Positions 9,359 through 33,770 of a stretch of DNA of 33,770 bases are shown here, piece by piece. The position numbers and the translations under genes were made by a program. Where the stretch lies: positions 1 through 33,770 of IMG/VR virus record IMGVR_UViG_3300017782_000092; one strand, given 5' to 3'. The stretch comes from a virus. Below the pieces are notes generated by a model. It ran no database searches and was not told the origin of the DNA. It was given only the letters and a program-made list of their open reading frames with translations. Numbering within the stretch: position 1 is the stretch's first letter; each line of letters opens with the position of its first letter.

Positions 9359-10585
9359 ATGGTAGCATACGAACAGATGATTGAAAAAGTGGCAGGACAG
9401 ATTAAAACAACCGTAGAAGCATTATCGGCAAAGGCCGATTTGCTTTTGGCACAAGAAGGTGCAGGTTGGGAAGCCGCCGGTAAGAACGAAGAACAGCGAA
9501 AGGTTTTGGCTCTACGAGTAGCGGCCCGACAAATCTCAAGCGAAAAGGCAAAATTGACCCGTAGCGGTGCTACTCTCTTTGAGGGTATGTTTGTCAGCGT
9601 TCCTCGCGAAAAGGATTGGGCTAAGATGGCTTACAACAAGATGAAGAACACCCTCTCCGCTTTGGATGAGGCCGGTCGTTTGGCTCTTGTTGAACAAGGT
9701 AGTGTCGTTCTTTACGAGAACAACCACGACGGCTCATTCACTCGCCACACCAACCCTTCTTTGATGGCAAAACAATCCTTTGAAGAAGGTATGCAGTCTT
9801 CGGACATTGACTCATTGCCTCCACGCCACATGGCTTTGGATGCAAACACATCATTCTCTTTGGTTTGGGATAAAAATAACATGACCTTCGCCAACGGTAA
9901 TGCCAACTTCAAGTATGGGTCAAACAGACCGCTTGAAGAATTAGACCGAACATGCTTGTTCATGGGTCGCAAAGAAGGCACTACCGGTGAACCTGAAATT
10001 ATCGAAGTCCGTCTTTCCGGCGAACAGGCGAAAATCCAATTCCCGACTTTTGTTTGTGGTAAAATTGGTTTGAAACCTGCGGCTAAGGTAGGTCTTTGCT
10101 ACGGCTCTAAGGCTACCGTATTCACGGCTGATGAATCCGTTATGGATATTTTCTCCGCCCCACCTTTCGCTCTTGATGACAACGGTTCACCTTTCGGTGT
10201 CGTTGCTGATTGGCTCGGTAACAACCTCAAGTCTTCTATCGAAGCGTGTGGTAAAGCATACGCCGAACTCGACCAAAAGGCCAAGTGGAACACTGTCTTC
10301 GGAACAATCGTCGAAGTCGTTCACATTGACCCACGAGAAAACGGTGGCTTCATTGTCACCCTCGGTGACACAGACATTATGAGCGAGGCCGAAGTAGTCT
10401 CCCTCTATGTCCCTGCCGACCAAGAAGGTGAAGTAGACTTCGGCGTTGGTTCGGAATTGCTCATCGTTGGTTCACCTTGGATTACTCGCGAAGAAGAATT
10501 GCGATTCATGGTTAATTCGTGGTGGTGTGCGAACCGCATTGCACCACTCGCAGACACCGACGCTGATGGCGACGGTTGGGATTGA
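9359..10585 (+). CDS. RPA-like single-stranded DNA-binding protein
   Basis: 408 residues from ATG 9359. This start is preferred to GTG 9350, because AGGAAG at 9345-9350 is correctly spaced for it. The N-terminal 60 residues are helical. After that, two regions look like OB folds: one around residues 60-220 (LFEGMFVSVPREKDW and following strands) and one in the C-terminal third (VFGTIVEVVHIDPRENGGFIVTLGDTD, then EVVSLYVPADQ, then LLIVGSPWI). The C-terminus is acidic (DTDADGDGWD), typical of SSB-type proteins that recruit partners. Position between clamp loader and recombinase fits a single-strand binding role. The OB assignment is by pattern. Confidence 0.6.
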   Translation: MVAYEQMIEKVAGQIKTTVEALSAKADLLLAQEGAGWEAAGKNEEQRKVLALRVAARQISSEKAKLTRSGATLFEGMFVSVPREKDWAKMAYNKMKNTLSALDEAGRLALVEQGSVVLYENNHDGSFTRHTNPSLMAKQSFEEGMQSSDIDSLPPRHMALDANTSFSLVWDKNNMTFANGNANFKYGSNRPLEELDRTCLFMGRKEGTTGEPEIIEVRLSGEQAKIQFPTFVCGKIGLKPAAKVGLCYGSKATVFTADESVMDIFSAPPFALDDNGSPFGVVADWLGNNLKSSIEACGKAYAELDQKAKWNTVFGTIVEVVHIDPRENGGFIVTLGDTDIMSEAEVVSLYVPADQEGEVDFGVGSELLIVGSPWITREEELRFMVNSWWCANRIAPLADTDADGDGWD

Positions 10586-10613
10586 GACGGTAATAACTTT
10601 AGGGGGAAAGGTA

Positions 10614-12188
10614 ATGACGAATATTGTTAAAGGTGATGAAGCGAAAAAGGCTATGTGTGCCGCTATCGACGCTATCCACGACGCTATCAGTGGCACTCTT
10701 GGCCCATGCGCTAAGACTGTTGTTGTGTCGGGTGTAGAGGGTAGACCGCCGAGAATACTCAACGACGGTGTTTCTATCGTCAACGCCGTTCATTCCGATG
10801 ACCCCGCCACCCAAACCGCAATTGAATTGTTTAGGCAAATCAGTAACGAGGCACAACAGGTTTCCGGCGACGGAACAACTACCGCATCAGTCCTTGCTCA
10901 CGCTATGGTTGAACACTCCAAAAAATATCTCGCACCTTTAGATGTAAAAACAATACGGGCTGACTTAGATGTTATCCTTCACCGCATTGAACAATCTTCC
11001 GAACAACTCGACCTCGACAACGAAGATGACGAGTCTCGCATAAGAGCAGTCGCTACCATAGCGGCCAACAACGATGAATGGTTGGGTGATGTTATCGCTG
11101 AAATGTTTATGGCAATAGGTGATGACGGTATGGTGAACATGAAAGTCGGTAGTGAAGACCACACCATATGGAGTCAAGAATCAGGATTCAGTTTACCTGT
11201 TGGTTATGCCTCTCCTATGTTTGCGAACACTCCTAAGAAGGCGTGTGTGTTCGACAACCCTCTTATCATCCTCGCTGATGAGATTGTAGAGGATTTTGAC
11301 ACATTGACACCTGCTCTTGAGATTGCTGTCGAAAACAGTAGACCTATTGTTTTCATGGTGAATGATATTAAGGGTATAGCATTGTCAAATCTAATCGCTA
11401 ATAAATTAGGCGGAATAGTAAACGCTTGTGCGATTCGTATGCCGAAAGGTGGTTATGATACGGAGTCTTGGTTCACTGATACTGCGGTGTTTACAGGTTC
11501 TTTGAATGTCTTTAGGGGCTTTGGTGGAGACGATGACCCGTTGGGTATTAACAAAGTCGAAGTCGATAAAGGACATTTCGGGACTGTTGATAGAATAATC
11601 GTAAAAGAAAACACTACACACTTAATTATGAGTAGTGAGAGTCAAAGTCAAGAATACAAATATCGTAAAGGTAATACCATTGATGTTTTGCACCAACAAG
11701 CCGAAGAAGCAACCCACTCTTTCGATAAGGAAAAGTTACTTGCTCGCGCAAACCGGCTCAACGGAACAGCCGCTACAATCCATGTTGGCGGTGTAACCGA
11801 ATTAGAAATCCGTGAAACGCGTGAGCGTATTGACGATGCCGTAAACGCTACTCGCCTCGCCCTCAAGGGTGGCGTTGTAGCCGGTGGTGGTTGGTGTCTT
11901 GTTCAGGTGTTGCGTGAGATTCACCAATCACACGCATCAAGTGTAAACCACTACAATATGTGGGTGCGTGTGCTTACTGCCCCTTACCGACAAATCCTAA
12001 CCAACGCAGGGTTTGAACCTGTTATCGAAGACCACTTGAGATACAGATTCCTTGACGCTTTGACATTGAAGGATTCAACAAAAGAAATCCTTGACCCAAA
12101 GCAAGTCGTCATCAACAGCCTAAAGTCGGCTGTGTCTATTGTTTCCCTAATAATCAACACCGATACGATGGTGATTTTGGGGGAATGA
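10614..12188 (+). CDS. groEL: Group I chaperonin (GroEL/Hsp60-like)
   Basis: 524 residues from ATG 10614, which follows AGGGGGAAAGG. GroEL-type motifs in order: TLGPCAKTVVV, DGVSIV with D51 (GroEL D52), GDGTTTASVLA (85-95, with D86 equal to GroEL D87), YASPMF and ILADE in the apical domain, KEKLLARANRLNGTAATIHVGG and the signature RIDDAVNATRLALKGGVVAGGG with D408 (GroEL D398), and DPKQVV...INTDTMV near the end. All three ATPase aspartates are kept. The GGM-repeat tail is absent. These are group I, not thermosome, features. No GroES-like gene is visible in the window. Its likely role is folding of viral structural proteins in a cage, as for phage-encoded chaperonins. Confidence 0.93.
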   Translation: MTNIVKGDEAKKAMCAAIDAIHDAISGTLGPCAKTVVVSGVEGRPPRILNDGVSIVNAVHSDDPATQTAIELFRQISNEAQQVSGDGTTTASVLAHAMVEHSKKYLAPLDVKTIRADLDVILHRIEQSSEQLDLDNEDDESRIRAVATIAANNDEWLGDVIAEMFMAIGDDGMVNMKVGSEDHTIWSQESGFSLPVGYASPMFANTPKKACVFDNPLIILADEIVEDFDTLTPALEIAVENSRPIVFMVNDIKGIALSNLIANKLGGIVNACAIRMPKGGYDTESWFTDTAVFTGSLNVFRGFGGDDDPLGINKVEVDKGHFGTVDRIIVKENTTHLIMSSESQSQEYKYRKGNTIDVLHQQAEEATHSFDKEKLLARANRLNGTAATIHVGGVTELEIRETRERIDDAVNATRLALKGGVVAGGGWCLVQVLREIHQSHASSVNHYNMWVRVLTAPYRQILTNAGFEPVIEDHLRYRFLDALTLKDSTKEILDPKQVVINSLKSAVSIVSLIINTDTMVILGE

Positions 12189-21585: not shown

Positions 21586-22308
21586 ATGACCGACCTTCTT
21601 CTCGTTGATAGAAGAGAAAATCCAAAGTTGATTCACAAGTTGTTGGCTAAGATGGGCGACCACGACCAAGACCCCAAAGGTATGTGTAAAGTATTACATC
21701 TAAACTCAGGTGATTACATATTGGGTGATTGGGGGGTAGAGGCAAAAGAGATTAACGACTTATACAACAGCATCCTCGGTATCGGTCGCTCAAGAACAAT
21801 TGTAGCGCAGTTGCACGATTTGTGTGAAACATTCGACAAACCTTTCCTTGTCGTTTACAATCGCGAATTGAAACCTTGGTTTCACGGTCGTAGACCGAGT
21901 GCGAGGGAATTGAGCGAGGAAAGAAAAAGAATGGCGACCGTGATTAAGTCATTCAAGATGACGATGCACCAACGATTCCCGAAATTGCACTTTCTTCAAT
22001 TGAATACTATGGATGACTTCGTAGATTGGTTATACACCAACCACCGACAAAATGCAATTGCGAAAGTGAAACCTCCTATTGAACACCAAGCCAAACCGGT
22101 GATTCGACACCACGATGCGAGAATCAAGACGCTGATGAATTGTGGCGTAACTGCCGAACAAGCGGAAAAGTTACTGTTAAAGTATTCGTCAATACCTATT
22201 CTACTTCGTAAGAACACCAAACAAAAGGACATGATGAAGTGCGCTCGTATCACCCGCAAACAAGCGAAAAGAATACTCGCACTTAGAGATACTTTCAGTA
22301 AGGATTGA
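21586..22308 (+). CDS. ERCC4-type (XPF/Mus81/Hef) nuclease with helix-hairpin-helix tail
   Basis: 240 residues; ATG 21586 preferred to TTG 21574. Nuclease core: VDRREN (7-12, D8 and E11), GDYILG (42-47) and VEAKEINDL (51-59), matching the family's D-x-RE, GDY and ERK-x3-D, with the Arg of ERK replaced by Ala. The C-terminus (ARIKTLMNCGVTAEQAEKLLLKYSSI and MMKCARITRKQAKRILAL) is a tandem helix-hairpin-helix. Archaeal Hef/XPF cut branched or flap DNA, so this enzyme likely resolves replication or recombination intermediates. No helicase domain is present. It is the last rightward gene and overlaps the tail block. Confidence 0.8.
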   Translation: MTDLLLVDRRENPKLIHKLLAKMGDHDQDPKGMCKVLHLNSGDYILGDWGVEAKEINDLYNSILGIGRSRTIVAQLHDLCETFDKPFLVVYNRELKPWFHGRRPSARELSEERKRMATVIKSFKMTMHQRFPKLHFLQLNTMDDFVDWLYTNHRQNAIAKVKPPIEHQAKPVIRHHDARIKTLMNCGVTAEQAEKLLLKYSSIPILLRKNTKQKDMMKCARITRKQAKRILALRDTFSKD

Positions 22309-25300
22309 ATCCTTGCGCGCTTGTAGACATTCCTTTTAGGCTGAATCTTTGAAAGTTGACTCTAATGTTGTGCAAGACCAAAGCCGAATAACTTAGGTCG
22401 TCGTCGCCCGAACCCGGCACTCTTGTTACCGTAATAGTAATGTTGTTGCCACCTGTTTCAGCACCGTTGAGGTTGCCGGATAAGAGAGGCATGGACTGTT
22501 TTTCTTCGTCGCCGCCAAATGTTACTGTTCGGGTAATACTACTACCTGTTTCTTCGCAATTGGCTACTACGGTGAGATTTGCTCGGCCCGCACTTGTTCC
22601 GCCAAGGCTGTATGAACAGTCTATTGTCACTATCTCATCGGAGACATCATCCGGCACTCTTACGCTTACGCTGTGCGTTTGGGTCTGTCTGTCGGATGAG
22701 TCGGGGTCGGATATTCCCGAAAACACCATTCCTTCGCTTGAGACGGTAGATGTTGACGAACCGGCAAATAGAGTGTCTCCGATGCCCTCTACGCTACGCT
22801 GTGTGTTCGAGGGGGGTGCTGACCTTGCTTGACCGAGAAGGCCAAAGGAAGCGTCGGAAACACCGTTTTCTAATAAGTCCATTCTACCACTTACTCTCGC
22901 ATGTATTCCCGATGCCAACATGTTGCCACTTATACTGCTTGAAAATGCACCTCCACCAACCTGCGTCATGCGACCGCCTTCTATTTGAGAAGGGGTGAAT
23001 GCTGTCGAACCAACCGGCCCACTTGTCGGTGGTATGTATGGTGTGCCTGTCCCTCCGCCTGTTCCGCCACCGGTAGCCGGTGGTGCGTCGGGCTTCGGTG
23101 TTGGTGGGGTGTTACCTCCACTACCACCACCTCCGACATGAGAAGAACCTCGACCACGAGATACAGCCGGGTATAGGAAAGATGCGAGTCCACCCGCTTC
23201 TTTTGTTTGGTCGCGCTCTAAGGACAATTCTACTTTCTCAATAGATGAGCCGGTTGCACTCCACGAAATATCAGTTATCGAAAGTGGTTCGGCTGATAGA
23301 CCCAACCCGCTATCCGTAAACTCCACTGTTGTTGCCGGTCGCCAACGAAGGTCGGGAACGATGTGCAGTCTCGGACAATACCAAGCGTTTCTTACGCTAA
23401 AAGCACCGGTCATGTTAGCGTATTGTCTTAGACCGAGAGGGAACAAACTGTTGGTGTTTGTTGCCGACCAATTGCTTACTCCTGTTTCTGTGTTTATGTT
23501 ATGGGCGTTGTGCAAAATGCTCGACGATGCGGGGTCGCCGCAACGGTGGCGTAGAATGTCCTTGAGATAATCTACATTTACGGAAAGAATAACTCTTTCT
23601 GTTCCCGATTGAGCAGTCCAATATGTTGAGGGGATGGCGATTTCGTAGAAACCGTTTCTTTTTACATTTACCGTAGTAGTAGATTTGTTGCTTACTGCGA
23701 GAGTTGGGCCGAAAGATGCTTGAATTGCACTCCCACCTTGAGTGTAGTCAGTGTCGAAAGCCGACTGAGGGTTTGTGTTGAATTGCATATCTGTTAAGCC
23801 AATAGTAAACTCGGCGTTGTCAATATCCGTTCCTGTTTGCCCGTCTTTTAACGCAATCCATATTCTCAAATCTTTACCGTATGTGTTGCTGAGTAGTGGT
23901 GTTTTAGTCGGTATGTGAACCGGTTGAACGGCGTGAGTCAAACTGTTCGCACCCCACCAATAAAAGTTGTTGTCGTAACTAACGGTTTGGCTTGTCGAAG
24001 TGCCTTGAGCAGTTATCCCTGCCCCGTATCTGTCTCTTCTGTATCGGTCGCTACCGTTCTTACTCATCTGTCCGTCGAGAGCGTTCTGTGTGCCACAAAA
24101 CATGATTCCGTTTACGGCGCACCATACACCGTTGCGGTCAACACTTGGACTGTGAACAGCGTTGTTCGATGTGTTAAATATGGTGTTGCCGACTACACCT
24201 CTTTCTGTGTGTCGGTATGGGTCGGCTATGTATGCGTATCTCCCTTTATCCAACATCTTGTCGTCAAAGGTTGTGTCCTTTAGAATGTTTCCTGAAATAC
24301 TGATTGACTTTTTCTTAGACTTAAAATACTCTTCCTTAGCAATTGCCAACGCTTCAACATCTGTTCCGACTTCCGGCAATTCTACTATTTTCCAACGATA
24401 CCTTTGATTGAGTGTTGGTGTCGGGTAATCAGCAAAAGAAATACCGTTATTGTAATATACTCGCACATTGGATATTTGTGAACCCATCTCGGCATCCAAA
24501 CCACTCACTGAAAGAATGTCTCGATTTATGACCTCTCCCGATTCGTATGTTGGTCGGACTTCTATCTTGTTATCTCTACCTACTTGGTAAGTCATAGGAA
24601 GTCTTAGTCCGTTTTCATAACCGAATCCAGTGCTTTCGTTTGATTGTTTTATTACGGAAAAAATAGATTTACCACCTCGCATATCAGCGACCGAACCGAA
24701 AGAATCGTAATTGGCGTTGTTGCTGTCGGTAGTCATATTGTTTGTCAACGGGACTGAACCTATGTCATACCAACAAGGGACTGCGGCTTGAGCGAGCCAA
24801 GTATTAGACAAAAGGAAAGACCACATGAACCTCATTTTATCGGAAAACCAATATGTCCCTATGTTTGGGCTTGAAACGAAACCGTCAACCTTCATCAAAA
24901 ATCTAAGTGCATATCTCGGACTTACGCTCGCAACAATAATTACTTGGTCGTAAGCACCGGTAGCGTTTTGTTGGTTATCGGCGTTGACCGCTATCTCCAA
25001 AAGGACTCCTTGAGATTTCAACACACCATTCATAACAATACCTTGAAGGTAACTCTCCGCTTGTTCAGCAGTAAAATTACGACCCGTATCGGGTTCAAGG
25101 TATACACCATACAATTGTTCCGGTATAGATATAGTGTCGCTGATAGCGACTGTTTGAGTCGTGCCTCCGGTTTCGTTTTTTAAGGTTGTATTTGATATTG
25201 TTATCGTTGTAGAAGTTACTGCTGTGATTTGGGCGACCCACTTCTGTGTAACATTTCTTACTCTCATTCCGAGTTTTACGCCTTCGTTGATAAAATCAGC

Positions 25301-28300
25301 ACCCGAACAAGTGATAACCATGCTCGATGCGTTTGCTGTGGTTGAGGTTGCCGTTTCTACTATTGACGAATCTAACTTTCCATCATACACATACCAAAAG
25401 GTTTCCGAAGAGGGGTTGTTGGTATCAGCACCTCTCGTGGCTTTAATTTTACCGTAACCGTATTGCTCAAAGTCAGCAATTAGACTCGACGACGGTTTAC
25501 TTTCTATCACTGTGTCGCCTACTTTTATTGTTCTGTTTAACTCAAAAGTCGCACCATTCCATAGCCGGTGATTCTCGTGATGACTAAATGGTGATGTTGC
25601 GTTTTTGGTCGTTGCCGAACCTTCAACCCAATAGTTATCCATGAGAACAGGGAAACCGTGATATTCGGTTTCGTAGTCTCCGATGTTCACTCGCCCTCCC
25701 GATGTTTGGTATGCGCTACCACCGTTAATAAAAGTATTAAGGTTAAAAAACTTAGAGCAATCGTAGACAACAACACTACCGCCTGTGTTTTCCCAAGAAC
25801 GGAGAAGCGATTCTACATTCTCCGCTTGTAAAACAACAAAGAAAGCAAAGTTACTTGCCGAGTAAGCAATATCAACGGTGTGGTCTGTCGCCAAGACGAT
25901 TAAAGAATTGCTACCGCTTGTATCAACAAAGGAAACGGTGTGTTCTTTGTCATATACGCCACAACCACCGAGAAGTATTTTGTCTCCGACAGAAGGTGCG
26001 TCAGCATCAGCACACTCGATGTATATTTTTCCTGTGTATGCGCCCGACTGATAACCGGAAAGTATCGGCCCGTTGACTGCGTTACCGCTACTTGTTTTTA
26101 TGGCTTTTGCGCCACCCGAACCCAACGGTAGAGAATACGGTATTCCGGTCGACGGGTCGACGGTTGAATCCAATTCCCACACATCTAAATCGCTACCAAC
26201 CTTCAAATCTGTAAACTCCGTGAAAGAGCCGTCGTCTTCATATTGGTCGGTAAACGAGATAGAAACGCTGTAATTTTCAGCAAGCGGTTTCATCAAACCT
26301 ATGTTGATTTTTTGGTAGCCGCCATTAGCGTCGGCATCTCCGTTGTTTCTCATGTCGGCCCACTGTAACCAAAGGTGTTTGTAATCTTCTTTGGTGTTTA
26401 GTATGTAGATTGTAGAGTCGTCGGCATGGCTCTTAGACAGCCCACTTACACCAACCAATTTTTTTGTTCCCTCAACGGGGTGCGGGTCAAATCCTCCGGT
26501 AAAAGTAAATGTGTCAACAAACCCATTCGAGTCTACTATTTGACCGACACCCGAAGTGCCGGTAAAAGAACCGGTAAAAGTTATTTGCGTGTCCGAGGCC
26601 AACACCGAACCGTCGGTCAATAGAGTGTCTTGCGGTAATCTTTCGTAAACACCGTAATGCTTTTTGAACCAAGGAGAGTCGGCCATTTGTCTCATCCAAA
26701 CAGCGTGTGCGGTTCTCATCTCCAACCCTATGTCCGTCGGGTTTAGGTAGCCTGTTTCGATACAAAAGTCTCCGGTGAAAGCAGTAAACCCAAAAGCGGC
26801 GGCAAGCGGAACGGGGTAATCTGTTTGAACAAAATATCTACTTCCGTAAGTAGCAGTAGCCATCACCCTAAAACACCCGTTGATGTGTGAAGATGCACCT
26901 TTTTCCGCCACCGTTAAGTAATCTCCTACTTTCAAAGTAGAACCGTCGGCTCTTGTTGGTTCAGCCGAAAATCTGTAAATAACATAACCCGAATGTTCCG
27001 CACTTCCTCCTATGGCTGTGCTTCTTGGGTCATAACTTGAGTAACCTTGTAATGAGGCAGTCGTGTTTTTTTGGTATGACACTGAAGGTATCACTACTGC
27101 TTGTGCGCCGTTGTTACTAAAATAACCGTTTGAGGCTGTATTGTGTGCTGTCGATACTGCGCTACTCGCCAATGTTCCCGTCGCTAAATTGTGGTTATCG
27201 CTACCGACGACGCTCACGGTATCTCCGTCAGCAAAACCTGTTGACGGCTGTTCCAATATAGCCTCGCAAACTGTTCCTGTTGGGTTGTTGAAACCTTTAA
27301 TTTTGTAGCCCAACCACTCATTTTCGATACTGTTTGGCCCTCGGACATCTTCGTTGTTATACATCTGTATTGGGTGGGCTGTGTGTAGAGACATTCTTTG
27401 GTGGTGTAATTCGGTGTATGCACCTGTCTTTTCAAAACCAATCGTCGGTAAATTAGAGCGTAACTTAGCCGCACCAAAGAACATAGCGTCGGATAGGTCG
27501 GACACTTCACTTCTTCGGGCAAGCACTTCGTCGCTTTCGCCTAAACCTATTTGTCCGACTTCCCAAGACATTATTTGTTTAGAGAGTAAAGAAAGAGAAT
27601 CTCGTGCCGAAATACCAATCTCTCTTGTTCTCTTATCGGCTTCTTGTTTTATGTTTATTTTTTCGATAATACCACTCCATAGTGGTCGATGAATGTTGTC
27701 GTTGAACATCAGCAATTTCCAATCGCTAATGTTATCGTTGGTAAACCAAGGAGTTAGGTTTTGTTCTGTGTCGTCATCCAATACTGTGATGCTCGCTGTG
27801 CTTATACCATTAGCGGGCATTCTACAATTCCAATTGTCTACCGGTGCGGGCAAAGTTGTTCCGTCGGGTATGTCTGTAAGGGGTCTGTAAAGGGCCACAC
27901 GGTCAATCATAGTATCTATCAAACACTTGTTGTAAGCCGAGGTTTCAGGGACTACAAACAATTCCCAACCGGTCATTTCGTCTTGGTTGAAAGCGGCTGA
28001 TGTTTGGGTGTTATTTTTAAGAGTATATCCCCCACTGTATGCACCTGCGGCGGTGTTCGTCGCCGTGACTTCTGTTCCGTTATGATAAACCTTAAACTTG
28101 TTTGAACCGATAAACTTAAAGTCAAAATCCTGCCAAATTGTTTTCATCAAACTTTCATCTTCGGGGTTGCCCTCTTCATCAGCGTCATACAGAATATGGT
28201 AGTAAGAGTATGGTGCGGAAAGCCCTGCACCGCTATGTGGCACAAAATCCCACTCGATAGCCGCAGTCCCACCATCCGAACCTGTTGTTCCAAAATTGGT

Positions 28301-29269
28301 GTTTGACGGGAATCCAATTTTAACGGTATACTTAACTTGAGCCGAGGTGTCTATTTGACCCGCAATCCCATCATCGGGCGCACTACCTGTATACATACCT
28401 TTCATAGCGTGGGTAGCCATTCGGAGTGTAAAGTAATCACCGGCTGTGCGGGAATTGAGAGGTTGGTCGTATGCTATGACCGGTCGATATTCTCCGACAG
28501 GAGTTATGTTGTTTAGTTGGTGGGCTGTATCGTCAGCCATGTATGTTGTCACACACAAAAAAGGTTTACCGGCAAGACTTTTTATTGGGGTAAAAATCCT
28601 TTCGGGGTGGTTTTCGTGTGCTGTTGCTGAACCATCCGAACCGTTGTAAGCACCGGCTTGTAATCGCTCGCCCATCCAAACTCCGGTCATATGTGCATAC
28701 TGCATAAAATTAGGCTGTGTTCCGGTAACTTGACCGGCTTCACCATCTTCGTATGTTTTTCCGTTAAAAGCATAATGGGTATCTCTACCAAACGAAGCGT
28801 CGGTGTCTCCACCCGGCAAATAATATTTTGCGTTTGTGTCCGAAGAAGAACATATCGTCATGTATGTAGCATCTACCGATGCTGTGCTGTGTGGGGTGGG
28901 GAGAAAACGAAGTCTGTTTGGGTGTGCCAAGGTCGAAGGGTATTGAGGTTGAGAGCGGCCTACCCAAGTAGAACCTTTGCCCAAACGAATGTGGTCGAAT
29001 GTGGCCCAACGATGTATTCCGTCGTTTGTCAAAAGATAATTTGTAGAATCGGAAAACTCCGTCGATTGTCGGTCGCGAATCGACCAACGGTAGCGAGGAT
29101 TCAAAGTAGCCTCACCGTTCATGGTGTTGCCGTGATGGGTCAAATTAGCATCGTAATTACTATGAGAAGAAGGGGCATTAGAGTCATCTGTAATGACTCT
29201 TGAACCCAAAAAATCTTCGTAATAACCTGCGAGCCAAAACCCGTATTTACTTGTTGCTGTTCTTACCAT
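22295..29269 (-). CDS. Giant tail hub/receptor-binding protein
   Basis: 2324 residues; ATG 29269 preferred to GTG 29278 (promoter spacing). Approximate architecture: 1-430 is strand-rich, possibly lectin-like; 490-590 resembles the first half of a gp27/gp37-type baseplate hub (ASITVLDDD, WSGIIEKINI, ISARDSLSLLSKQ). 600-1590 is strand-rich with no recognised motif. 1590-1700 has the second hub half (ISNVRVYYNNG, KSKKKSISISGN, GRYAYIADPYR). 2036-2076 is a Gly/Pro/Thr linker. 2080-2324 is a terminal beta domain. It follows the tape measure gene, as hub and fibre genes do. It probably caps the tail and contacts the host surface. There are no protease or lysozyme motifs. Confidence 0.7.
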   Translation of the reverse strand: MVRTATSKYGFWLAGYYEDFLGSRVITDDSNAPSSHSNYDANLTHHGNTMNGEATLNPRYRWSIRDRQSTEFSDSTNYLLTNDGIHRWATFDHIRLGKGSTWVGRSQPQYPSTLAHPNRLRFLPTPHSTASVDATYMTICSSSDTNAKYYLPGGDTDASFGRDTHYAFNGKTYEDGEAGQVTGTQPNFMQYAHMTGVWMGERLQAGAYNGSDGSATAHENHPERIFTPIKSLAGKPFLCVTTYMADDTAHQLNNITPVGEYRPVIAYDQPLNSRTAGDYFTLRMATHAMKGMYTGSAPDDGIAGQIDTSAQVKYTVKIGFPSNTNFGTTGSDGGTAAIEWDFVPHSGAGLSAPYSYYHILYDADEEGNPEDESLMKTIWQDFDFKFIGSNKFKVYHNGTEVTATNTAAGAYSGGYTLKNNTQTSAAFNQDEMTGWELFVVPETSAYNKCLIDTMIDRVALYRPLTDIPDGTTLPAPVDNWNCRMPANGISTASITVLDDDTEQNLTPWFTNDNISDWKLLMFNDNIHRPLWSGIIEKINIKQEADKRTREIGISARDSLSLLSKQIMSWEVGQIGLGESDEVLARRSEVSDLSDAMFFGAAKLRSNLPTIGFEKTGAYTELHHQRMSLHTAHPIQMYNNEDVRGPNSIENEWLGYKIKGFNNPTGTVCEAILEQPSTGFADGDTVSVVGSDNHNLATGTLASSAVSTAHNTASNGYFSNNGAQAVVIPSVSYQKNTTASLQGYSSYDPRSTAIGGSAEHSGYVIYRFSAEPTRADGSTLKVGDYLTVAEKGASSHINGCFRVMATATYGSRYFVQTDYPVPLAAAFGFTAFTGDFCIETGYLNPTDIGLEMRTAHAVWMRQMADSPWFKKHYGVYERLPQDTLLTDGSVLASDTQITFTGSFTGTSGVGQIVDSNGFVDTFTFTGGFDPHPVEGTKKLVGVSGLSKSHADDSTIYILNTKEDYKHLWLQWADMRNNGDADANGGYQKINIGLMKPLAENYSVSISFTDQYEDDGSFTEFTDLKVGSDLDVWELDSTVDPSTGIPYSLPLGSGGAKAIKTSSGNAVNGPILSGYQSGAYTGKIYIECADADAPSVGDKILLGGCGVYDKEHTVSFVDTSGSNSLIVLATDHTVDIAYSASNFAFFVVLQAENVESLLRSWENTGGSVVVYDCSKFFNLNTFINGGSAYQTSGGRVNIGDYETEYHGFPVLMDNYWVEGSATTKNATSPFSHHENHRLWNGATFELNRTIKVGDTVIESKPSSSLIADFEQYGYGKIKATRGADTNNPSSETFWYVYDGKLDSSIVETATSTTANASSMVITCSGADFINEGVKLGMRVRNVTQKWVAQITAVTSTTITISNTTLKNETGGTTQTVAISDTISIPEQLYGVYLEPDTGRNFTAEQAESYLQGIVMNGVLKSQGVLLEIAVNADNQQNATGAYDQVIIVASVSPRYALRFLMKVDGFVSSPNIGTYWFSDKMRFMWSFLLSNTWLAQAAVPCWYDIGSVPLTNNMTTDSNNANYDSFGSVADMRGGKSIFSVIKQSNESTGFGYENGLRLPMTYQVGRDNKIEVRPTYESGEVINRDILSVSGLDAEMGSQISNVRVYYNNGISFADYPTPTLNQRYRWKIVELPEVGTDVEALAIAKEEYFKSKKKSISISGNILKDTTFDDKMLDKGRYAYIADPYRHTERGVVGNTIFNTSNNAVHSPSVDRNGVWCAVNGIMFCGTQNALDGQMSKNGSDRYRRDRYGAGITAQGTSTSQTVSYDNNFYWWGANSLTHAVQPVHIPTKTPLLSNTYGKDLRIWIALKDGQTGTDIDNAEFTIGLTDMQFNTNPQSAFDTDYTQGGSAIQASFGPTLAVSNKSTTTVNVKRNGFYEIAIPSTYWTAQSGTERVILSVNVDYLKDILRHRCGDPASSSILHNAHNINTETGVSNWSATNTNSLFPLGLRQYANMTGAFSVRNAWYCPRLHIVPDLRWRPATTVEFTDSGLGLSAEPLSITDISWSATGSSIEKVELSLERDQTKEAGGLASFLYPAVSRGRGSSHVGGGGSGGNTPPTPKPDAPPATGGGTGGGTGTPYIPPTSGPVGSTAFTPSQIEGGRMTQVGGGAFSSSISGNMLASGIHARVSGRMDLLENGVSDASFGLLGQARSAPPSNTQRSVEGIGDTLFAGSSTSTVSSEGMVFSGISDPDSSDRQTQTHSVSVRVPDDVSDEIVTIDCSYSLGGTSAGRANLTVVANCEETGSSITRTVTFGGDEEKQSMPLLSGNLNGAETGGNNITITVTRVPGSGDDDLSYSALVLHNIRVNFQRFSLKGMSTSAQGFNPY
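22300..22314. terminator. Palindrome at the convergent gene junction
   Basis: AAGGATTGAATCCTT is symmetric around one base and spans the rightward TGA (22306-22308) inside the 14-base overlap of the two convergent genes. It could form a short hairpin on either transcript, so it may serve as a bidirectional terminator. It is small and could be chance. Confidence 0.35.
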
Positions 29270-29284
29270 TTCTCTCACTCTCTA

Positions 29285-32967: not shown

Positions 32968-33264
32968 CTACTGCTTAGACATAGGAACACCTAAGCCCCT
33001 AAGCATGTTTAGCCCTTCGTTGTCGTTTAATAATTCTCTTTGGTTTATGCGTTGCTTTCGACGGGCGGCGGCACTGTTGCCATCCATTTTCTTTTTGCTG
33101 TCGTTTGTTGCTTTTTCGATTTTTTCGCTCATTTCCATAGCGACTAATAAATCCATACTGAGCATCTCTTGACCGCCTTCGCAGTCATACCTATCCCACA
33201 AATCCGAGGGTAGCGTTCCTTTGTATGCCATGCACAAGGTTGGTGCTACTCGGAAGAATGTTCC
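32968..33264 (-). CDS. Frameshift extension of the tail assembly chaperone (gpT-like)
   Basis: This -1 frame is open from 33264 to a stop at 32968-32970 (98 residues after the slip). It has no good start codon of its own: TTG 33237 lacks a Shine-Dalgarno, ATG 33231 is deeper. The residues are polar and helical (MEMSEKIEKATNDSKKKMDG) with a basic end. In dsDNA phages with long tails, a gene pair before the tape measure gene makes gpG and, by -1 frameshift, gpGT. Here the fused product would be about 213 residues when starting at ATG 33608. See the slippery site at 33264-33270. Confidence 0.7.
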   Translation of the reverse strand, partial: GTFFRVAPTLCMAYKGTLPSDLWDRYDCEGGQEMLSMDLLVAMEMSEKIEKATNDSKKKMDGNSAAARRKQRINQRELLNDNEGLNMLRGLGVPMSKQ

Positions 33265-33608
33265 AAAGGGATAGCACCTTCGGGGTTATCTCCCCGAACA
33301 AACCCAAGAATCATTCTCAATTCTTCACTTGTCAAATCGTCAAGGTCAAAGTCCTTTGGTGCAATAATTGATTTAGGCATCCACTCACGGATTTGGTTTT
33401 CCATACCGCAACCGGCTTCTTCTAATGCGTTGGCAAACTCTTCGTTTTGCTCATCAGTCCACTCGGTAACATCAGTCCCAAAGTGTGAAAACTTACGAAA
33501 TGTTTTCGCTTGGAGATTCTCAATTTTCAATTTTGACATTCCACCGGCTTGTCGCACAGTGATTGTCGTTCCGTCATCTAATTCAAAGTCTTTTGTTAAT
33601 ACAGGCAT
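33246..33608 (-). CDS. Tail assembly chaperone (gpG-like)
   Basis: 120 residues from ATG 33608 (GTG 33617 is an in-frame alternative). It is acidic with a strand-rich N-terminus (DFELDDGTTITVRQAGGMSKLKIENL) and helices later (EWTDEQNEEFANALEEAGCG; LTSEELRMILGFV), as in gpG-type chaperones. The gene lies just upstream of the tape measure gene in transcription order, the conserved position. It would coat the tape measure protein during tail assembly. Confidence 0.7.
   Translation of the reverse strand: MPVLTKDFELDDGTTITVRQAGGMSKLKIENLQAKTFRKFSHFGTDVTEWTDEQNEEFANALEEAGCGMENQIREWMPKSIIAPKDFDLDDLTSEELRMILGFVRGDNPEGAIPLEHSSE
33264..33270 (-). promoter_or_regulatory. -1 ribosomal frameshift site CCCTTTG
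   Basis: On the minus strand the sequence reads C CCT TTG in the zero frame, the ideal X-XXY-YYZ form. Slipping back by one gives CCC TTT followed by GGA in the downstream frame, which stays open to 32968. Zero-frame translation stops seven codons after the heptamer begins (TAG at 33246-33248). Confidence 0.75.
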
Positions 33609-33668: not shown

Positions 33669-33770
33669 TTAGTATGCGGAACTCTTTGTTGTTTGGAGGG
33701 TGCAATCCATCATTTTACTATCGTCAGGACTGAAAAGTGCGACGAAAGGAACACTCATGGTTTGAGTGTC
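33669..33770 (-). CDS. C-terminal end of a tail structural protein (partial)
   Basis: 33 codons are open from the right edge to TAA at 33669-33671. The piece reads SVPFVALFSPDDSKMMDC and ends SSAY. In long-tailed phages the gene before the tail assembly chaperone encodes the tail tube protein, and this hydrophobic, strand-like segment fits its end, but it is too short for proof. Confidence 0.5.
   Translation of the reverse strand, partial: DTQTMSVPFVALFSPDDSKMMDCTLQTTKSSAY

Follow-up and report, generated by a model that had tools for sequence, protein, structure and literature searches.

Programmed -1 ribosomal frameshifting in the tail assembly chaperone gene is long established in phages, as in lambda gpG/gpGT and the HK97-type phages (Xu, Hendrix and Duda 2004, cited in PMC5009743), and in the lambda-type scheme G is plentiful and GT scarce, the tape measure protein being bound by G and tied to the tail tube subunits by T (PMC5009743). 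The same event has been predicted in the tail chaperone gene of the haloarchaeal tailed viruses HVTV-1 and HCTV-1, -2 and -5 (PMC5009743, PMC8211752) and of Hardycor1 (PMC7911831), and in the HVTV-1 record a joined chaperone coding sequence is annotated immediately before the tape measure gene; an earlier note on the DNA discussed here had called such frameshifts rarely documented in viruses of archaea, which is better put by saying that predictions already exist for several viruses of haloarchaea. That DNA, the window, is the whole 33,770-nucleotide stretch of IMG/VR record IMGVR_UViG_3300017782_000092, and it is a further example, in a marine virus group. Judged from sequence, two of its reading frames, G and T, very probably encode the paired tail assembly chaperones of a virus with a long tail, with a -1 programmed frameshift at C_CCU_UUG yielding the fusion GT. 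The elements concerned are these:

33246 to 33608, minus strand: gene G, putative tail assembly chaperone, 120 amino acids from ATG 33608, with a conserved MPV start and an AlphaFold2 model
32968 to 33264, minus strand: T extension in the -1 frame, 98 amino acids after the slip, ending at TAG 32970-32968, with protein-level selection in the -1 frame and a helical model
33264 to 33270, minus strand: slippery heptamer C_CCT_TTG, in phase; CCCTTTN is kept in phase in 105 of 120 distinct homologous junctions
33246 to 33285, minus strand: region where G and the open -1 frame overlap, from the reading of the open reading frames (ORFs)

The likeness to lambda gpG/gpGT and the HK97-type phages lies in the order major tail protein, G, T and tape measure, in an X XXY YYZ site for a -1 shift late in G, in a short and an extended product (here predicted) and, tentatively, in the fold of G, whose predicted model has a moderate match to the HK97 chaperone 2ob9. 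The locus differs from them in its heptamer, which is C_CCU_UUN here rather than G_GGA_AAG, in that G and T are without detectable sequence similarity to known families, and in a Shine-Dalgarno-like (SD-like) stretch directly upstream of the heptamer. With HVTV-1, HCTV-1/-2/-5 and Hardycor1 it shares a tail chaperone gene in which a -1 frameshift is predicted; it differs in that T has no tblastn match in phage records, and neither blastn nor tblastn found homologues in GenBank phage records.

In the window itself, CCCTTTG stands at 33270-33264 in the phase ATC CCT TTG, and re-reading the coordinates and the phase agrees with the earlier note, which had placed CCT and TTG at codons 117 and 118 counted from GTG 33617. 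Frame G runs through CCT TTG GAA CAT TCT TCC GAG to the stop TAG 33248-33246, so that the seven codons that the note had counted from the heptamer to the end of the zero frame are seven sense codons, and the -1 frame is, as it had claimed, open from before the site, from 33285 (five codons upstream of the heptamer, the preceding stop being TAA 33288-33286), on to TAG 32970-32968. The 9111 codons of this genome's ORFs hold 29 in-phase X XXY YYZ sites (0.0032 per codon), and the chance of finding one in the 13-codon overlap is about 4%; a single window sequence therefore does not settle the frameshift. Relatives do settle it. They were collected by IMG/VR scans with G and T, are marine viral contigs and comprise 120 distinct junctions (some counts below come from a smaller set of 94), and a canonical heptamer stands in phase in 110/120, which excludes chance. 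This was also the comparison that the earlier note had proposed, namely of heptamer and phase in related metagenomic viruses.

T lies in the -1 frame of G in every one of the 120 junctions, and the identity of this relation throughout leaves essentially no probability for the idea that a sequencing or assembly error, or decay into a pseudogene, has split a single ORF, in favour of which nothing was found. The heptamer of 105 of them is CCCTTT with G, A or T as its last base; in a further five (L237, L238, L239, L240 and L242) AAT replaces CCT and T_TTT_TTG follows one codon later, near locus position 1500, and on these sequences the slippery site is shifted and its type retained. A six-T run at the site, seen in a few relatives (L103, L106), would suit a fusion made by transcriptional rather than ribosomal slippage, but CCCTTT, without a long homopolymer, is all that the window and most relatives have there, and the codon phase is kept in every junction, which makes that explanation extremely unlikely. 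The heptamer is also the spot in G most constrained at silent sites: on the G+T protein tree, third bases change 0 times in CCT and 4-6 times in TTN, against a mean of 21 per codon for G (25 in the larger set), and in the codon before CCT base 1 changes 18-19 times and base 3 only 5-10 times, the reverse of what is normal. That codon encodes V, I, P, L, C or T, yet its final base is C in 88/94 junctions. Ordinary protein constraint does not explain such a pattern, whereas a requirement for tandem slippage does.

The frame under purifying selection also switches, in these alignments, at the heptamer and ahead of any shared start codon: in the 32 nucleotides before it, changes at 0-frame positions 1/2/3 number 60/30/241, and 18-35 nucleotides after it, changes at -1-frame positions 1/2/3 number 36/21/111. 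This comparative evidence supports translation of the -1 frame as an extension of G. The conserved F-x-R-V-A-P-x-L-C of T has no shared start codon upstream, and its RVAPxLC stretch, in nearly every sequence beyond the G stop, still comes ahead of any such codon. An alternative, that T is a separate protein made from its own codon (ATG 33231 or reinitiation coupled to the stop) with the heptamer incidental, is very unlikely. In its favour, an in-frame ATG at the 33231 position is common (70/94 relatives), but the position is Ser or Gln in the other 24/94, so that the Met there is a residue and not a conserved start, the 11 -1-frame codons ahead of it are selected as protein, and no SD-like stretch, read by eye, stands directly before it in the window. 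A start of T's own at ATG 33231 was accordingly rejected, the codon not being conserved among the 94 junctions. Since T is without its own start in the window, it would be mis-called as an independent gene, and its annotation needs correcting. What the sequences show is the conserved site, its phase, the gene order and purifying selection on the -1 frame directly after the site.

Several results weigh against this account. In ten of the 120 junctions the canonical heptamer is missing and N_CCU_UUU stands instead, N being any base but C (G_CAU_UUU in the case of L077), and in nine of these ten the G stop overlaps an ATG in the T frame (TAATG or TGATG, together TRATG), a possible independent start of T. 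Neither G nor T has a significant or reliable match in PHROGs or Pfam, and no named chaperone family was found there; the match of the G model to 2ob9 has moderate strength, with Foldseek E 0.13 and a Z of 5.5, which by the tool's own warning may reflect a common arrangement and no more; and no downstream stimulatory structure stands out, the window fold having z -0.37 and the relatives a mean z of about -0.8, no stronger than the control in T.

The junctions without a canonical heptamer deserve a closer look. The relaxed N_CCU_UUU (CAU in L077) is combined with TAATG or TGATG in L077, L082, L092, L099, L110, L116 (G_CCT_TTT), L205, L225 and L226, while L229 has A_CCU_UUU and ATA in place of the ATG. 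TRATG occurs in 25/120 junctions, the nine included, which favours a separate T; set against this, -1 codons before the ATG in the TRATG clade change 1/1/15 times at positions 1/2/3, and L229 is without both canonical heptamer and ATG. Where the canonical heptamer is absent, in ten junctions, the -1 codons from the slip site to the ATG change 0/0/7 times, and the third-position changes of the TRATG clade are nearly all synonymous in T while hitting second codon positions of G. The simplest reading of these sequences would be that N_CCU_UUU still slips, and additional free T by reinitiation is possible. The earlier note had named two observations as telling against a frameshift, of which relatives without a slippery site were found in part (the ten lack the canonical heptamer, yet their -1 frame is selected upstream of the ATG), and a conserved independent start of T was not, none being shared by the junctions, nine of the ten having the overlap ATG and L229 none. 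That one clade of relatives uses both routes, N_CCU_UUU frameshifting for GT and TRATG reinitiation for extra free T, is a possibility I regard as rather unlikely: the overlap marks a clade of about 24 junctions and the first heptamer base is relaxed only there, but this would apply to relatives and not to the window, which is without TRATG, and the Met may be a simple Arg-to-Met replacement. Heptamer loss and TRATG are associated by Fisher's test (p 4e-5), although this is a single clade and hence not independent evidence.

As to the products, homologues of G align from ATG 33608, with MPV (MPVLTK in the window) conserved as the opening residues, and an in-frame start at the position of GTG 33617 is present in few of them; this shared opening makes ATG 33608 the probable start, so that the codon count of the earlier note stands but its start codon probably does not. 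From this ATG the predicted sizes are 120 amino acids for G and about 213 for GT, the sequence across the slip would read NPEGAIPL and then GTFFRVAPTLCMAYKG, and the predicted GT junction peptide in the window is GDNPEGAIPLGTFFR. For the AlphaFold2 model of G (pLDDT 88), Foldseek and VIA-align alike place the HK97 tail assembly chaperone 2ob9 first in the PDB, and the model's top BFVD matches include several proteins annotated as tail assembly chaperones (E 4e-3 and weaker). The T model is helical from its second residue, with pLDDT above 90 in the N-terminal half. Two neighbouring genes complete the picture:

33669 to 33770, minus strand: 3' part of the tail tube protein gene, truncated at the window edge; its frame DTQTMSVPFVALFSPDDSKMMDCTLQTTKSSAY, closed by a stop, matches the end of 1774-2760 in locus L002
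29291 to 32944, minus strand: tape measure protein gene, directly downstream of T, with a TTG start and SD-like GAGGGG upstream

The L002 gene at 1774-2760 matches Pfam PF18906 Phage_tube_2 (E 6e-21), and the tape measure gene, which probably starts at TTG 32944 with GAGGGG preceding, matches PF10145 (E 7e-17), phrog_28 and TIGR01760 (E 2e-25). The order tail tube, G, T and tape measure is general among loci with enough flank, the tube gene being upstream in 95/95 and the tape measure gene downstream in 91/91. The earlier note's central claim, that a -1 frameshift joins tail-chaperone frames, is thus backed by phase, conservation, frame-specific selection, gene order and predicted fold. Directly downstream of the tape measure gene, a 2327-amino-acid ORF (22295-29278, minus strand) has no Pfam or PHROGs match and by position probably belongs to the tail tip or fibre region.

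I infer slippage in the host, its rate, stimulation by the SD-like stretch and chaperone action, and the proposed sequence of events is the following. Most ribosomes would translate G from ATG 33608 to TAG 33246, and a minority would slip back one base at C_CCU_UUG and continue into T, the Pro-tRNA re-pairing from CCU to CCC and the Leu-tRNA from UUG to UUU with mismatch only at the third position, so that one GT fusion would be made per many G. If the lambda scheme holds here, a coat formed by the G part would cover the tape measure protein, and tail tube subunits would be brought in by the T portion of GT; the neighbouring genes encode these two proteins.

What might stimulate the slip is suggested by one further element:

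33275 to 33281, minus strand: GAAGGTG, SD-like stretch and candidate stimulator, ending 4 nucleotides before the heptamer, with excess anti-SD pairing

Sequences just upstream of the heptamer in G homologues are GGAGGGTG, GAAGGTG, GATGGTG and similar. Pairing was scored against the anti-SD AUCACCUCCU of archaeal 16S rRNA, and within G it is clearly above the synonymous-codon expectation only next to the heptamer, where z across 93 homologues is -3.2 to -4.9, against -1.7 for the next best; this is a positional association among related, non-independent sequences. SD-like sequences stand ahead of many ORFs in the window. A second SD-like peak, around -26 (VRGD codons), was rejected as not above the synonymous-codon null. 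The weak GCAC/GTGC pairing that the earlier note had offered as a stimulator does exist in the window (33246-33243 with 33235-33232), but it is broken in relatives (e.g. GCCC...TTGC) and was rejected, downstream folding being unremarkable; the upstream stretch is, on sequence, the best candidate and likelier than this hairpin. HVTV-1 (L199 25920-25980) has GGAGG about 10 nucleotides upstream of its chaperone slippery site GGGAAAG, a lone case in a GC-rich genome. A fuller proposal, plausible though somewhat less than even in my estimate, is that base-pairing of the SD-like stretch to archaeal 16S rRNA promotes the -1 shift, in the manner of bacterial dnaX, and that the slippery site has been displaced by one codon (T_TTT_TTG) or has loosened (N_CCU_UUU) in a clade whose newly gained stop/start overlap could yield a separate T; if true, these loci would form a natural series of a programmed frameshift being replaced or backed up.

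With respect to the host, no homologue of G or T was found in a one-per-species set of bacterial and archaeal genomes, which therefore gives no host link. The window encodes RFC small subunit-like and Hef-like genes, and its PolB has its best matches in haloarchaeal viruses, at only 22-25% identity. To go by gene content, its host is probably a marine archaeon, and it may belong to the magrovirus group. Magroviruses, which infect marine group II archaea (Poseidoniales; PMC10160649), resemble it in marine origin and in combining a family B DNA polymerase, an RFC-like clamp loader and head-tail genes. Frameshifting is not mentioned for them in that paper, and a text search of a paper collection, the original magrovirus papers aside, gave no frameshift report for magroviruses or Poseidoniales viruses. 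The finding would extend tail-chaperone frameshifting from a few haloarchaeal viruses to a large uncultured marine virus group with a different heptamer, and the roughly 120 naturally occurring variants can serve to ask on which codon pairs and stimulators archaeal ribosomes rely in -1 slippage, for which experimental data are scarce. The window also holds a chaperonin gene (10446-12188, plus strand) that scores far better with bacterial-type GroEL models (E 8e-94) than with the archaeal thermosome (E 3e-10), though under the GroEL cut-offs, and this GroEL leaning is odd beside archaeal-type replication genes.
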